Assembly (NCBI GenBank): GCA_002878315.1
Contig: PNIW01000001.1
Span: forward strand, 1 to 49,380
Length of the DNA: 49,380 nucleotides
Reading direction: 5' to 3'
Origin: Mesoaciditoga sp.
GTDB taxonomy: Bacteria; Thermotogota; Thermotogae; Mesoaciditogales; Mesoaciditogaceae
Below are positions 17,066 to 49,303 of this stretch, in pieces (the first letter of the stretch is position 1; the number at the start of each line of letters is the position of its first letter). Both the position numbers and the translations under genes were made by a program. The notes under the pieces were generated by a model. It saw only the letters and a program-made list of their open reading frames with translations, searched no databases and was not told the DNA's origin.

Positions 17066-17731
17066 CTATTTTAATTTGGAATAAAATTCATCTATCCATC
17101 CGACATCTCTCGAATGGTATCTGAAGACAAGCAACCTTCCATTCCCTGGATCTATAAAAACCTCTTTTCCCTTCGATTCATTGCTTATGCCGTAAGGTCT
17201 GAGATATTCCATCTTTTTTCTGTCTAAATTGTATTTGAACCCCTTCAAAGAGACATTTTCCACATCTCTTTGAAGTGGAATGACAGACCATCTTTCTCCG
17301 GCACGACTTTCAAGGTAAAGAGGCCGATCTATGACAAATGCACACAAATCTTCGTTAAAGGTGATACTTGCCTTAAAACGTTCCATCAGTCTAAAAACTC
17401 CGAGGGTTTGATCGAGTCTTGTTCCAAAAGCACCTGCTATGAAAAATGCGTCTGCACCATTTTTTTGCGCTTCGATGAGTGCAAGTTCTGTATCTATCTC
17501 ATCCTTTTCGGAAGGAAATCTCACGATCCTCACTTTATTCCTTTGACACAGATCGAGGGTATCCTTTTCTATCGAATCCATGTCTCCTATCAAGATATCC
17601 GGCAATATTCCAAGAGAATTCAAAAAATTTGCACCGGAATCAGCGGCTATCTTTAGATCAAAAAATCTCAAAACCTCTTTGTAAAAAGGTGGGAATCTGT
17701 AATCTCCTCCCGCAAAAATGACTGCCTTCAC
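17066..17731 (-). CDS. thiN: Thiamine diphosphokinase
   Basis: A 221-residue thiamine pyrophosphokinase that makes the TPP cofactor from thiamine and ATP. Motifs: FAGGDYR at the N-terminus, AADSGANFL, LIGDMDSI (catalytic aspartates), FPSEKDEIDTELAL, and GAFGTRLDQTLG. The GTG start at 17731 overlaps the rpoN stop (GTGA), preceded by GAGAAGG. TPP is the cofactor of NifJ encoded nearby, although a terminator separates the two transcription units. Confidence 0.9.
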   Translation of the reverse strand: MKAVIFAGGDYRFPPFYKEVLRFFDLKIAADSGANFLNSLGILPDILIGDMDSIEKDTLDLCQRNKVRIVRFPSEKDEIDTELALIEAQKNGADAFFIAGAFGTRLDQTLGVFRLMERFKASITFNEDLCAFVIDRPLYLESRAGERWSVIPLQRDVENVSLKGFKYNLDRKKMEYLRPYGISNESKGKEVFIDPGNGRLLVFRYHSRDVGWIDEFYSKLK

Positions 17732-18996
17732 TTTAACCTTCTCCTCGATGAGCCCGGAATACCGAGTTCTTCTCTGTACTTTGCAACAACCCTTCTGCTT
17801 AGATCTATTCCTTCATCCTTGAGTTTTTTTTGAATTTCAAAGTCCGATAAGGGCGAATTTTTGTCTTCTTCCCTTATGTATTTGGCGATCTTTTCTTTAA
17901 CCTCTTCTCTCGATATTTCTTTATCTTCATTTCTGTATATAAACCTTTCAAAAAAATACTTTAGAGGATATATTCCATTTGGGGTTTTAACGTATTTTGA
18001 AGAGATGATTCTTGTCACGGTCGAAGGGTTTACCCCGATTTCATTTGCGATCCATCCGACTTTCAACGGTACTAACTTCCCACCCTTAAAAAATGTCTCT
18101 TCCTTTTGCGCGATGATCTGGCCAAATTTAATCAGGGTCTCCTTTCTTTTGACAAAAGACTCGATCAAGTTCTTTGCCTGATCGTATTTTAATTTCGCGA
18201 ACTCGATCTGCTTTTTGTCTCCGCTTTCAATCATCTTTTCGTAAAGTTCTAAATCTGCAAATCTCAAATCGATCCTTTCATTGACATACGCTTCAAACCC
18301 GTTATCTCCCTTAGAAATAAAAATATCAGGTTCAACGTACTGCGTGTACAGAGAATCGTAAAACCCATTCGCCGGATATGGATTTAACTTTTTTAGTCTC
18401 TCGAGTGCTTCCTGAAATTCTTCCCTTTCCATTCCTGATTTTGCCAAAGCCGTGGCGGGATCTTTATCAAGAAGTTCGAGCATATTTATGAGTGTATGTA
18501 ACCGGGGATCATCAGTCTGCGCAAGGAGCGCTTCTTTAACATCTCTGCTTCCGATTCCCGGCGGATCGAAGGATTTCAAAATTTCGATCATCCTTTCAAC
18601 CTGCCGCGGATCAACTGCTAATTCTTTAGCGATCTCGGTGATTTCCGATTTTATAAAGCCGCGATCGTCTATAAAATCAATCAAATAGAGGAAGATTCTC
18701 TCTTCCTCCTTTGTAAAATCCATAAGATAAAGTTGATCGATCAAATGAGATTTCAAAGAACGATTTTCAATCTCGTAATTTTCTATATCGTATTCTTCCT
18801 CTGTGTCTGTTTTTCTTACAAAATTTAAATTTGGAAATACTTCAAATTCTATAAAAGGATTCTCCTGTGCGATCTTCTCTATTTCATCTTCAAGATCGAT
18901 GATATTCATGTTGAGTAATTTCAAAGAAAGCAACATTTTGTTGCTAAGAAAAAGCGTGTTTTTCAATTTCAACCTTTGGTGAATGAAATGGCCCAT
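17728..18996 (-). CDS. rpoN: RNA polymerase sigma-54 factor
   Basis: A 422-residue sigma-54. Region I (LFLSNKMLLSLKLLNMNIIDLEDEIEKIAQENPF) interacts with activators and -12 melted DNA; an acidic region II follows; the core-binding part covers ~75-230; the helix-turn-helix is near residue 330 (NEIGVNPSTVTRIISSKYV); the RpoN box is SRRVVAKYREELGIPGSS near the end. All parts needed for activity are present, and it is slightly short for the family. The ATG at 18996 has GGAGTG upstream. It begins a minus-strand run with thiN, DUF4912 and GH57. The window also holds one strong -24/-12 site and one sigma-54 activator. Confidence 0.96.
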   Translation of the reverse strand: MGHFIHQRLKLKNTLFLSNKMLLSLKLLNMNIIDLEDEIEKIAQENPFIEFEVFPNLNFVRKTDTEEEYDIENYEIENRSLKSHLIDQLYLMDFTKEEERIFLYLIDFIDDRGFIKSEITEIAKELAVDPRQVERMIEILKSFDPPGIGSRDVKEALLAQTDDPRLHTLINMLELLDKDPATALAKSGMEREEFQEALERLKKLNPYPANGFYDSLYTQYVEPDIFISKGDNGFEAYVNERIDLRFADLELYEKMIESGDKKQIEFAKLKYDQAKNLIESFVKRKETLIKFGQIIAQKEETFFKGGKLVPLKVGWIANEIGVNPSTVTRIISSKYVKTPNGIYPLKYFFERFIYRNEDKEISREEVKEKIAKYIREEDKNSPLSDFEIQKKLKDEGIDLSRRVVAKYREELGIPGSSRRRLK

Positions 18997-45375: not shown

Positions 45376-45404
45376 ATTTTATCATAAGGATAATAAAAAT
45401 TCAA
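45376..45404 (-). promoter_or_regulatory. Promoter of tRNA-Leu
   Basis: On the minus strand TTGAAT (45404-45399) and TAAAAT (45381-45376) are 17 bp apart, and the -10 is extended by TGA. Predicted start near 45369, just before the tRNA 5' end. The -35 overlaps the stop codon of the response regulator gene. Confidence 0.6.
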
Positions 45405-46741
45405 CCATTAAGATGCTTTATCATATTTTGAAGAAGGCGCCTATCCATCTTTGCCATTTCTGCGGCCTTTGAAACATTTCCTCCGGCTTTAAAAAGTAAT
45501 GAAGAGACAAATTGATTCTCGAGTTGGCGGTAAAGTTTGTCTCTCTCAATTCGTTTTCTAAGAAGAAAGGCTCTGTAATCGATAATCTCTTCTTCAGACA
45601 CCTCCAATGGCAAATCCCTTGCTTTTATCTCTCCTTCTGCATTCAAAACCGCTCTCAAGATCACATTCTGTAATTCTCTAACGTTACCAGGCCATCTGTA
45701 AGTTTTTAACATTTCCATCGCCTTGGGAGAAATTGATTTCACGTTCTTTTTCATCTGTTCCGCATATCTGTTCATGTAATACTCTGCGAGAATTTCTATA
45801 TCTTCGGGCCTTTCTCTCAAAGGTGGAATCTCTATCCTTATAACGTTTATCCTGTAATAAAGATCTTCTCTGAATTTTTTATCATCTATCATCTTCTCAA
45901 GCGGTTTATTTGTGGCACTTATGAGTCTAAAATCGATCTTCCTTTCCTCAACGCTTCCGAGTCTTGTTATTTTGAAGTCCTGAAGTACCCTGAGTAACTT
46001 TGCCTGATCTTCGAGCGGCATATCTCCTATCTCATCGAGAAAAAGCGTGCCTCCGTTAGCCGCTTCAAACTTTCCTATTTTTCTTGAATTTGCCCCCGTA
46101 AAGGCCCCCTGCTCGTATCCGAAAAACTCACTTTCGAAAAGTTCTACGGGAATTGCCGACATGTTAACCGCCATAAAGGGACCAGTGCATCTTGGACCTT
46201 GATCGTGGATTGCGCGCGCGATGAGTTCCTTTCCGGTCCCGCTCTCTCCAAGGATAAGAATTGGAAGATCGAGATTTGCGTACTGCGGAATCTTATCGAG
46301 AATTTTGAGGATCTTTTCGCTCTTCGTTATGATATTCGAAGACCTCTTTATTCGTTCTCTTAATATAGAATTTTCCCTTTTTATGTTGACGTAATTTATA
46401 CTTCTGTCTATTTTTGTCTCGAGATCTTCCAAATTCACAGGTTTTGTTATGTAATCGTATGCTCCCTTTTTAATGGCTTCGACGGCATTTTCTATCGTTC
46501 CAAAAGCCGTGATTATTATGACAGGAATGTCGAATTGATCCCTTACAATTCTTAAAAGTTCTATTCCGTCCATCTTTGGCATCTTTATATCGGTCACGAT
46601 GAGATCTACCCGGTTTTTTCGAATTATCTCAAGGGCTTCGAGCCCGTTCTGTGCCGTCAAAACATCGTATTTCTTCGAAAAATTCATCCTCATAAGTTCT
46701 AACATGTAACTTTCATCGTCGACGAAAAGTATTGTGTTCAC
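45401..46741 (-). CDS. Sigma-54-dependent response regulator, NtrC family
   Basis: A 446-residue regulator in three parts: receiver (residues 1-120, phosphorylation site D51 in LIVTDIKMPKMDG, conserved VDDE), AAA+ activator domain (~140-375) with Walker A GESGTGKELIA, the sigma-54 contact loop GAFTGA, Walker B LFLDEIGDM and the RPEDIEILAEY region, and a C-terminal Fis-type HTH (FKAGGNVSKAAEMAKMDRRLL). All residues needed for sigma-54 activation are present. Its start overlaps the end of the kinase gene, forming a typical two-component operon. Target: probably the SPW gene upstream (see its promoter). Confidence 0.95.
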   Translation of the reverse strand: MNTILFVDDESYMLELMRMNFSKKYDVLTAQNGLEALEIIRKNRVDLIVTDIKMPKMDGIELLRIVRDQFDIPVIIITAFGTIENAVEAIKKGAYDYITKPVNLEDLETKIDRSINYVNIKRENSILRERIKRSSNIITKSEKILKILDKIPQYANLDLPILILGESGTGKELIARAIHDQGPRCTGPFMAVNMSAIPVELFESEFFGYEQGAFTGANSRKIGKFEAANGGTLFLDEIGDMPLEDQAKLLRVLQDFKITRLGSVEERKIDFRLISATNKPLEKMIDDKKFREDLYYRINVIRIEIPPLRERPEDIEILAEYYMNRYAEQMKKNVKSISPKAMEMLKTYRWPGNVRELQNVILRAVLNAEGEIKARDLPLEVSEEEIIDYRAFLLRKRIERDKLYRQLENQFVSSLLFKAGGNVSKAAEMAKMDRRLLQNMIKHLNG

Positions 46742-48687
46742 GCTTTCACCTCCAGAGGGAGAATTATAGAAAATCTCGTTTGATTTTCATCGCTTTTGAC
46801 GTCAATATGACCTCCCATGGCATTTACATAATTGTATACTATAGAAAGTCCAAGGCCCGTTCCATTTTCCTTTGTGGTGTAAAATGGCTCGAAGATACGC
46901 TGAAGATCTGATTTTGGTATAGCCTTGCCGTTGTTGGAAACAGAGATTTTAAAATAACTTTCAAATTTTTCAACCTCAAAGGATATCCATTTCCCTTCTT
47001 CAACTGCATCGAGCGCATTTGTGCCTATGTTAAGGAGTATCTCCATAAGCATGGATTTGTCGAACTTCGCAATAAAGGGAGAAGGAAAAGATGTTCTTAT
47101 CTCAATGGACCTTTTTGACGCATTTTCCCTTAAAAGCAGCGCGATCTTCTTGACTATCTCGACAGGATCTCCTTCTTCAACGACAGGCGGTTTTTGACGG
47201 GCAAAATAAAGGAAATTTTCGAGAATTGAATTGATTCTTGCGAGTTCTTCGTCTATGTACTTCCACAGTTTTTCATTTTGATTTGGATCCGTTCCCTTTC
47301 TTAGCATCTGAATAGACGTAGAAATTATGTTAAGGGGATTTCTTATCTCATGTGTAACACCGGAAGAGAGTTTGCCAAGGGCAGCCATTCTTTCCTGAAA
47401 GATCATCTGCTTTTCGATCTTCACGACTCTCTGAATGCTTCTGTACCTTGATAGAAAGAAGGTTAAGTGATTTGAGAGCGTTTCGATCCACTCGAGATCT
47501 TCTGAAGAGTACCTTCCGCTTTTTTTGTGGCCTAAGACCATGAATCCTTCAACTTTACCGGCATTTTTCATCCAAACAAGCAACTCTTTGCCGGAAAATA
47601 TCCCTGCAGATGGCAAACTGTAAAGATCCACAATCTTGAGTATATCTCCGCAAGGTATTTCCTTTTGATCAAGAACGCTTTTTACAGATCTGTAATTCCC
47701 ATCATCATCCTTAAAGAACAATTCTATGTCTTCCGTGTTTAAAACACTCGATGCGTAATCAACTATAAGATGCTCAAGATCCTCGAGAGAATCTGTTTCA
47801 AGGCTTTTCTTGACAAAATTTATTGTTTTCTCTCTTTTATAGCCGCGTCCCGTGCGCAGGATTTTTTCAAAGAATTCGTCTATTTTTTGAAGATAATCTC
47901 CGAATACCAAAAAGGACAAAAATATCACGACAAAGGATATTGAAAACAACTGGATCAGACTTGAGGTCTTTGAAAAGTAGAAATTGGTGTAATAACTTAT
48001 TATCAAAATAAAGGATATCAAAAGGGAGATCATCAATCCGTAAAGGGCATTCTTCAAAAAAGCCTTTGAAATCTGGATCATTCTTATCTCGTAGACAAGA
48101 TTCACTATAGTGTAAAGATAAATTGGAATAAGGATAGAGTTCATTGCCGAAATATACGGCCACATTCCGTTATGATAAATCCACAGCCAGAAAATTATAA
48201 CTTCAAGCGTCTCGAAGAGCCCGTAAAAAACAATGTAAGTCTGCACCTTAGATCTTGCAAAAAAGGAAATTATGTCGGTATACTTTCTTGTCATGAAAAA
48301 TATCGAAAAGATAACGTTTAACGTTGATAGTATTCCCAAAAAAACAAGATCTGCTTTTGAAAGCAGAAAAAAATAGATTAAAATGGAGCCAACCAAAAGT
48401 ATTCCGAATTCAAAAAAGTAAAGTACTTTAAACCTAAAAGCGTAAGATATCATAAGAACTGGGATGCTTCCAAAAAGAATAAAGAAAACGGACAAAAGCG
48501 CTATCGGTAACGGAAAATCGATCATATCGAAGAAAAGCGCCACATTCCAAAGGAAAGAGGTTGCTATCATCAAAATAAGGTAGGGATTCAAAGCCTTCTT
48601 GACGTAAAAATAATATCTCAAAGAAACGAAAAACAAAGTCAAATTGGCAACAAAACTCAAAGAATTGAAATAAAACCTTGCAGGCAC
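46738..48687 (-). CDS. Membrane histidine kinase with N-terminal multi-span sensor
   Basis: A 649-residue kinase. Residues 1-265 hold about eight membrane spans without a large outside loop, so the signal may be membrane-borne or internal. Residues ~290-415 look like a GAF-type domain; HisKA is LGKLSSGVTHEIRNPLNII (H446); the ATPase domain has NIGTNALDAVEEG, ISVSNNGKAI, and GTGLGLSIVYNYV. The layout resembles PrsK-like kinases that partner sigma-54 regulators. Start GTG at 48687, with GAGGGG upstream. Cognate regulator is the next gene. Confidence 0.92.
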   Translation of the reverse strand: MPARFYFNSLSFVANLTLFFVSLRYYFYVKKALNPYLILMIATSFLWNVALFFDMIDFPLPIALLSVFFILFGSIPVLMISYAFRFKVLYFFEFGILLVGSILIYFFLLSKADLVFLGILSTLNVIFSIFFMTRKYTDIISFFARSKVQTYIVFYGLFETLEVIIFWLWIYHNGMWPYISAMNSILIPIYLYTIVNLVYEIRMIQISKAFLKNALYGLMISLLISFILIISYYTNFYFSKTSSLIQLFSISFVVIFLSFLVFGDYLQKIDEFFEKILRTGRGYKREKTINFVKKSLETDSLEDLEHLIVDYASSVLNTEDIELFFKDDDGNYRSVKSVLDQKEIPCGDILKIVDLYSLPSAGIFSGKELLVWMKNAGKVEGFMVLGHKKSGRYSSEDLEWIETLSNHLTFFLSRYRSIQRVVKIEKQMIFQERMAALGKLSSGVTHEIRNPLNIISTSIQMLRKGTDPNQNEKLWKYIDEELARINSILENFLYFARQKPPVVEEGDPVEIVKKIALLLRENASKRSIEIRTSFPSPFIAKFDKSMLMEILLNIGTNALDAVEEGKWISFEVEKFESYFKISVSNNGKAIPKSDLQRIFEPFYTTKENGTGLGLSIVYNYVNAMGGHIDVKSDENQTRFSIILPLEVKA

Positions 48688-48712: not shown

Positions 48713-48747
48713 AACACAAAAGAAGGCCGGTAAAAGCCGGCCTTCTT
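48713..48747 (-). terminator. Intrinsic terminator after the SPW-repeat gene
   Basis: A perfect 11-bp GC-rich stem (48720-48730 with 48737-48747) with a 6-nt loop, then TTGTGTT on the minus strand. It separates the SPW gene from the kinase gene 25 bp further on, so the kinase needs its own promoter or read-through. Confidence 0.75.
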
Positions 48748-48761
48748 GACAATCAGATCTA

Positions 48762-49085
48762 TTATGCTGTTTTCTTTGGCCTTTCGAACAAGGAAACGAT
48801 AAGGACTATTATACCGACGATCAAATCATTGACAAGATTGACAGTGTAAGAATGTGTGATTCCCGGAATGAAAGCCGCTATTATCATCCATACTCCGCCT
48901 ATCAAACCTATGATCCATCCTTGCCATGACGCATGTTCCGGAATCATCATGAATCCAAGTATCGCCACTATTATTCCAACGATCAGATCGTTGACAAGGT
49001 TCCCTGTTCCACCAAGAGGAATAAATGATGCTATGATAAGCCATATTCCTCCTATTATCAAAGTTGTCCAGCCTCTCCATGTCAT
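48762..49085 (-). CDS. SPW-repeat small membrane protein
   Basis: A 107-residue protein with four membrane spans built as two similar halves: WRGWTTLIIGGIWLIIASFIP...NLVNDLIVGIIVAILGF and WQGWIIGLIGGVWMIIAAFIP...NLVNDLIVGIIVLIVSL. This is the SPW repeat type, whose function is unknown. The ATG at 49085 follows GGAGGTGA. Its promoter is a consensus -24/-12 site, so expression should depend on RpoN and an activator. A small homologue-like membrane protein next to a two-component pair suggests a stress or envelope role. Confidence 0.85.
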   Translation of the reverse strand: MTWRGWTTLIIGGIWLIIASFIPLGGTGNLVNDLIVGIIVAILGFMMIPEHASWQGWIIGLIGGVWMIIAAFIPGITHSYTVNLVNDLIVGIIVLIVSLFERPKKTA

Positions 49086-49124
49086 AAAAATCACCTCCAT
49101 CGAATTTTCTTTCCACTTTTAATT

Positions 49125-49141
49125 AGCAACGATCGTGCCAA
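49125..49141 (-). promoter_or_regulatory. Sigma-54 (-24/-12) promoter of the SPW-repeat gene
   Basis: On the minus strand TTGGCACG-ATCG-TTGCT: GG at 49139-49138 and GC at 49127-49126, exactly 10 nt between, and all flanking positions match the sigma-54 consensus (YTGGCACGrNNNTTGCW). Predicted start ~49114, giving a leader of ~29 nt that contains the Shine-Dalgarno. Confidence 0.9.
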
Positions 49142-49191: not shown

Positions 49192-49224
49192 TGAAATGAA
49201 AAGTGCGAAGAAAATCTTCGCACT
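49192..49224 (-). terminator. Intrinsic terminator of the last minus-strand gene
   Basis: A perfect 10-bp stem AGTGCGAAGA/TCTTCGCACT (49202-49211 with 49215-49224) and a 3-nt loop, followed on the minus strand by TTTCATTTC. The T-run on the plus side (GTTTTTG) is also present, so it could work in both directions. The ~80 bp between it and the stop at 49304 holds no gene. Confidence 0.7.
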
Positions 49225-49303
49225 GTTTTTGAAAATACTCGTTAATTATGAAGATTCGCTGCGAACTTTTTCTTCACACATGATAGTTTTGTTGCTTTTG
49301 ACA

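Follow-up and report, generated by a model that had tools for sequence, protein, structure and literature searches.

Two-component systems that pair a membrane kinase with an NtrC-type regulator include ZraSR and AtoSC, and a small envelope protein is among the targets of ZraSR. The activator of the phage-shock (Psp) response, PspF, is not known to have a receiver domain or a partner kinase. In the Psp response, a sigma-54 activator drives small membrane-associated proteins under inner-membrane stress (PMC3068692), and in the XrtA/PEP-CTERM system a PEP-CTERM gene is reported to be RpoN-dependent (PMC9850573). According to a published generalisation, what sigma-54 controls tends to concern the cell exterior (PMC3162934). 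The only paper on the SPW family found in the literature is a structural model, in which the family consists of two repeats of two membrane helices (PMC8078820); the proteins are present in both bacteria and archaea and have no known function. Our literature search found no prior report on SPW regulation, and nothing functional on SPW repeats or sigma-54 in Mesoaciditoga.

We analysed a stretch of 49,380 nucleotides from Mesoaciditoga sp. (the window). It makes up contig C70 of an assembly of 1.77 Mb that is 84% complete. We put at about 85% the probability that the locus described below (Table 1) is a dedicated two-component/sigma-54 switch, the apparently single target of which is an SPW gene.

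The SPW gene and its -24/-12 element

Table 1. Features of the SPW locus and of its putative regulators, in positions of the window
Feature	Position	Strand	Description
Sigma-54 -24/-12 promoter element TGGCACGATCGTTGCT	49125..49140	(-)	Exact consensus, kept in relatives
Enhancer-like palindrome 1 TGCGAAGATTTTCTTCGCA	49204..49222	(-)	Exact TGCGAA-N7-TTCGCA, centre near -99, kept in relatives
Enhancer-like palindrome 2 TGTGAAGAAAAAGTTCGCA	49260..49278	(-)	One mismatch, centre near -155
Ribosome-binding site GGAGGTGA	49091..49098	(-)	Direct reading of the sequence
SPW-family membrane protein gene	48762..49085	(-)	107 aa, PF03779 profile and hydrophobicity
Intrinsic terminator-like hairpin 3' of SPW	48720..48747	(-)	Stem of 11 pairs
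Membrane sensor histidine kinase	46738..48687	(-)	649 aa, ~7 predicted membrane segments, GAF-like region, HisKA, HATPase
NtrC-type response regulator	45401..46741	(-)	446 aa, receiver, GAFTGA AAA+ domain, C-terminal helix MDRRLLQNMIK
rpoN (sigma-54)	17728..18996	(-)	Only genome copy, all three domains

The profile search gave the SPW protein 42.1 bits against PF03779, above the curated cut-off of 31.5, and its four hydrophobic segments are predicted membrane segments. Like the published model of the PF03779 family (PMC8078820), it has two repeats with two membrane helices each. It differs in the namesake motif, since the literal S-P-W tripeptide is absent and the two repeat positions read SFIP and AFIP. 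Membership rests on the profile score, and the description of the product as an SPW-repeat membrane protein in the original prediction, which had been made from this DNA sequence, stands for the family and fails for the literal motif. The AlphaFold model of the protein had a mean pLDDT of 60, and no solved structure that matches it by sequence was found. The nearest named relative found was Athalassotoga saccharophila (Thermotogota, Mesoaciditogaceae), with an SPW protein that is 91-92% identical.

The start codon, picked from the ribosome-binding site and the alignment, is likely the ATG at position 49085 (MTWRGW...), 5 nt past GGAGGTGA and 40 nt past the -24/-12 element; an in-frame ATG at position 49100 was disfavoured on the same grounds. 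The terminator-like hairpin was rated strong and parts the SPW gene from the kinase gene, so that SPW is probably a separate transcription unit. The kinase and regulator genes overlap by 4 bases and probably form a second one.

The comparison of TGGCACGATCGTTGCT with TGGCAC-N5-TTGCW showed zero mismatches and a GG-N10-GC spacing, which bears out the original claim of a match at every informative position with exact spacing; transcription would be expected to start near position 49114. This was the only zero-mismatch sigma-54 site in the window and the only one that scored at least 16 on a weight matrix, which approximates the published sigma-54 consensus and gives relative scores only. None of 2000 shuffles of the 200-bp SPW upstream region reached its score. 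Of the five exact matches in the 1.77-Mb genome, two were at SPW genes, two fell within coding frames, and one stood ~36 bp 5' of a ketosynthase gene.

The original prediction had been staked in part on conservation of the element in relatives. We found it at the SPW orthologues of nine of the ten family genomes, including that of the window (8/9 others), as well as at those of G013 and G019, which belong to a second family. When the shuffle test was applied to the orthologues of G001-G007, G009, G013, and G019, the score was reached in 0/2000 shuffles or nearly so, the weakest results being those of G006 (13/2000) and G019 (1/2000). A built-in negative control is given by the SPW paralogues in these genomes (L001/L015/L023/L025 and L004/L021/L022/L027), which had no such element. 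It is extremely improbable that the match arose by chance and that a sigma-70 promoter serves SPW. The AT-rich DNA does contain many sigma-70-like matches, and the element is missing from two SPW genes of G008. However, of the same-strand matches listed, none falls in the stretch from the palindromes to the start of SPW, and the element is kept between genera and in both families although the sequence on either side of it has diverged.

Several other loci were recorded. The sigma-54 elements TGGCACGAATATTGCT (L211:1590-1605, G000:C8:12589) and TGGCACAAATTTTGCT (L210:4034-4049, G019:C99) are located just before fabF-type ketosynthase genes in the two families, without the TGCGAA palindrome, and the ketosynthase gene of G019 comes after an NtrC-type regulator. 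Fatty-acid synthesis may thus hold a second target of sigma-54. A one-mismatch element, TGGCACGAATAATGCT (L215:1398-1413, G000:C24:19398), is located directly 5' of an aminotransferase gene in the correct orientation. The assembly of the window also holds a second sigma-54/palindrome/SPW locus (L177, G000:C13:1-5664), which may come from a co-assembled strain or be a duplicate, because its protein and neighbours resemble those of G002. Two near-identical SPW-paralogue regions, L001 (G000:C87) and L003 (G000:C105), may be duplicates or an assembly artefact; in the latter, the SPW match contains a TGA in frame.

Palindromes upstream of the promoter

A pair of TGCGAA-N7-TTCGCA palindromes, absent from the original prediction, is located upstream of the SPW promoter. 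Two copies were present at most Thermotogota SPW loci, 55-57 bp apart, and at the SPW loci of KSB1, 67-70 bp apart, while G013 and G019 had a single copy each; the contig of G002 starts too near the SPW promoter to show a second one. Between genera, in the 14 loci with clear sites, the half-sites were 94% identical and the promoter 87%, against 31% (background) for the 56 bp before the promoter. Matches with at most one mismatch occurred at six places in the genome of the window, and four of these were at the two SPW promoters. Over 17 loci, the distance from the start of site 1 to the -24 element took only values of 80-82, 92-93, or 104-105 bp. This periodicity of ~12 bp was strong when compared with uniform placement, in a test where the loci share ancestry and the period was scanned, and which includes two weak KSB1 sites (3 mismatches) and omits the 'Proteobacteria' locus (123 bp).

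The palindromes could in principle be terminators of the upstream gene and not an enhancer, and palindrome 1 of the window did score like a terminator on either strand. However, the upstream gene varies among loci while the half-sites, the spacing of the copies, and the distance to the promoter are kept, and most copies, usually two per locus, have imperfect arms and a variable centre, like a protein-binding site. We consider the terminator explanation very unlikely.

The membrane kinase and the GAFTGA activator that had been placed beside SPW, and the rpoN gene placed in the same window, were all found there; rpoN is about 27 kb from the SPW locus. The regulator scored above the cut-offs for PF00072 and PF00158, contains GAFTGA, and has an aligned Fis-type helix, as in the NtrC family, and HTH_8 was scored in its KSB1 orthologue. 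The conserved palindromes are candidates for the upstream enhancer sites of an activator of that family.

Distribution of the kinase, regulator and sites in other genomes

Orthologues of both the regulator and the kinase were found in nine of the ten family genomes, those with the promoter and the palindromes, and the regulator helix MDRRLLQNMIK was identical in all nine. The tenth genome, G008, has neither gene, and its two SPW genes have neither the promoter nor a matching palindrome pair; this joint absence speaks for the circuit, with the reservation that it is one loss event in a genome that is 89% complete. The kinase gene adjoins SPW in three of the genomes that belong to the genus, is 3 kb away in a fourth, and is unlinked to it in the others. 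In G004-G007 and G009 the two genes are not neighbours, which was counted against the circuit. No regulator of the window's clade was found in the G013 and G019 assemblies, though the promoter and one palindrome are kept; this too was counted against the circuit, and could reflect incomplete assemblies or a replaced activator. A long kinase of G019 with its regulator (C18) was rejected as the missing orthologue because of differences in the sensor region and in the DNA-reading helix.

SPW matches in a KSB1 MAG and in a 'Proteobacteria' MAG had similar upstream sites. The search of the KSB1 phylum (82 genomes) gave six SPW loci in five genomes, and all six were directly 3' of an NtrC-type regulator, itself preceded by a multi-pass kinase, in the same direction (some frames of L223 and L224 are interrupted in the assembly). 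The kinase, activator, and SPW genes are in a row in the one 'Proteobacteria' MAG as well. Kinase, regulator, and SPW genes thus stand side by side, in that order, in another phylum; the original prediction had proposed to look for the order of these genes in relatives. These loci mostly had the same palindromes and a -24/-12-like element; the weak palindromes of two KSB1 loci and the degenerate -12 elements of KSB1 were counted against the circuit. GT or other changes replace the -12 GC of KSB1 SPW promoters (L047:4944-4959, L217), which is not usual for sigma-54 and may be a variant of this lineage. Because of this degeneracy, RpoN dependence is less certain in KSB1; RpoN was present in the L047 MAG and as a fragment only in the 'Proteobacteria' MAG.

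The KSB1 regulators carry the helix [MY][DN]RRQ[LI]QN, and the SPW-linked regulators overall [MY][DN]RR[QL][LI]QN. SPW-linked regulators, including that of the window, formed one clade (support 100/99); the remaining activators in the tree, which were all from Thermotogota, fell outside it. The sensor regions of the window-type and KSB1 kinases aligned by profile with a probability of 98.6. From linkage, co-distribution, and shared clade we infer that the palindromes are binding sites of the window regulator.

It is unlikely that SPW is sigma-54-dependent with a C92- or C31-type activator bound to the palindromes while the neighbouring pair controls something else. The genome does encode two other full-length sigma-54 activators, of these two types, and G013 and G019 have the palindrome with activators only of other clades, including relatives of both types. 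However, G008 has both types and neither the promoter nor the palindromes, the KSB1 SPW genes adjoin regulators of the window's clade and not of other clades, and the window-type regulator and the palindrome share their distribution within the family.

No such promoter was found at the SPW genes of other Thermotogota, WOR-3, Acidobacteria, and Latescibacteria. Sigma-54 control is therefore not universal in the SPW family and appears to be a property of one of its branches and of the KSB1-type modules.

Proposed circuit and comparison with described systems

In the switch that we propose, the kinase would sense the state of the membrane and phosphorylate the NtrC-type regulator. The latter would bind the two TGCGAA-N7-TTCGCA sites, which are defined by conservation, and loop to an RpoN-RNA polymerase presumed to wait at the -24/-12 element. 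The resulting short transcript would encode SPW alone and end at the terminator-like hairpin. The order kinase, NtrC-type regulator, RpoN, SPW of the original prediction is sustained by the element, the palindromes, the co-distribution, and the KSB1 gene order. Its term 'self-contained' for this regulon should be qualified, since other promoters probably depend on RpoN as well and the genome encodes two further full-length activators.

The SPW protein may be an effector or a feedback partner in a membrane-homeostasis response of the Psp or ZraSR-ZraP kind. We offer this role tentatively, with the odds somewhat against it, on the basis of the location of SPW in the membrane, the membrane-embedded sensor, the analogy with Psp and Zra, and the general tendency of sigma-54 (PMC3162934). 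A cross-phylum, single-output sigma-54 system that makes SPW on demand, with the membrane state read by a multi-pass kinase, is likewise possible and still doubtful. If this is true, SPW would be a stress effector or a feedback subunit of the kinase in an envelope response that has not been described before. A family without known function would gain a regulatory handle, as an inducer of the promoter would show when SPW is needed, and the conserved pair of helix and site would be a clean candidate for the enhancer code of one activator clade.

The locus is like AtoSC and ZraSR in its membrane kinase and NtrC-type regulator. The proteins scored below the equivalog cut-offs of both systems (AtoC, 416/714 bits; AtoS, 188/646 bits; ZraR, 344/760 bits; ZraS, 149/479 bits), and the target here is a four-segment membrane protein and not ZraP. 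PrsK/PrsR of the XrtA/PEP-CTERM systems shares with the locus a multi-pass membrane kinase with a GAF-like region, an NtrC-type regulator, and RpoN, whereas the inferred target here is an SPW protein; the scores of 91.6/300 bits (TIGR02916) and 396.1/502.6 bits (TIGR02915) were also well below the equivalog cut-offs. With Psp, the locus has in common a sigma-54 activator that would drive a small membrane protein, in a comparison of protein families that covered the activator core. In contrast to the Psp system and its activator, PspF, the Mesoaciditoga locus contains a two-component pair.
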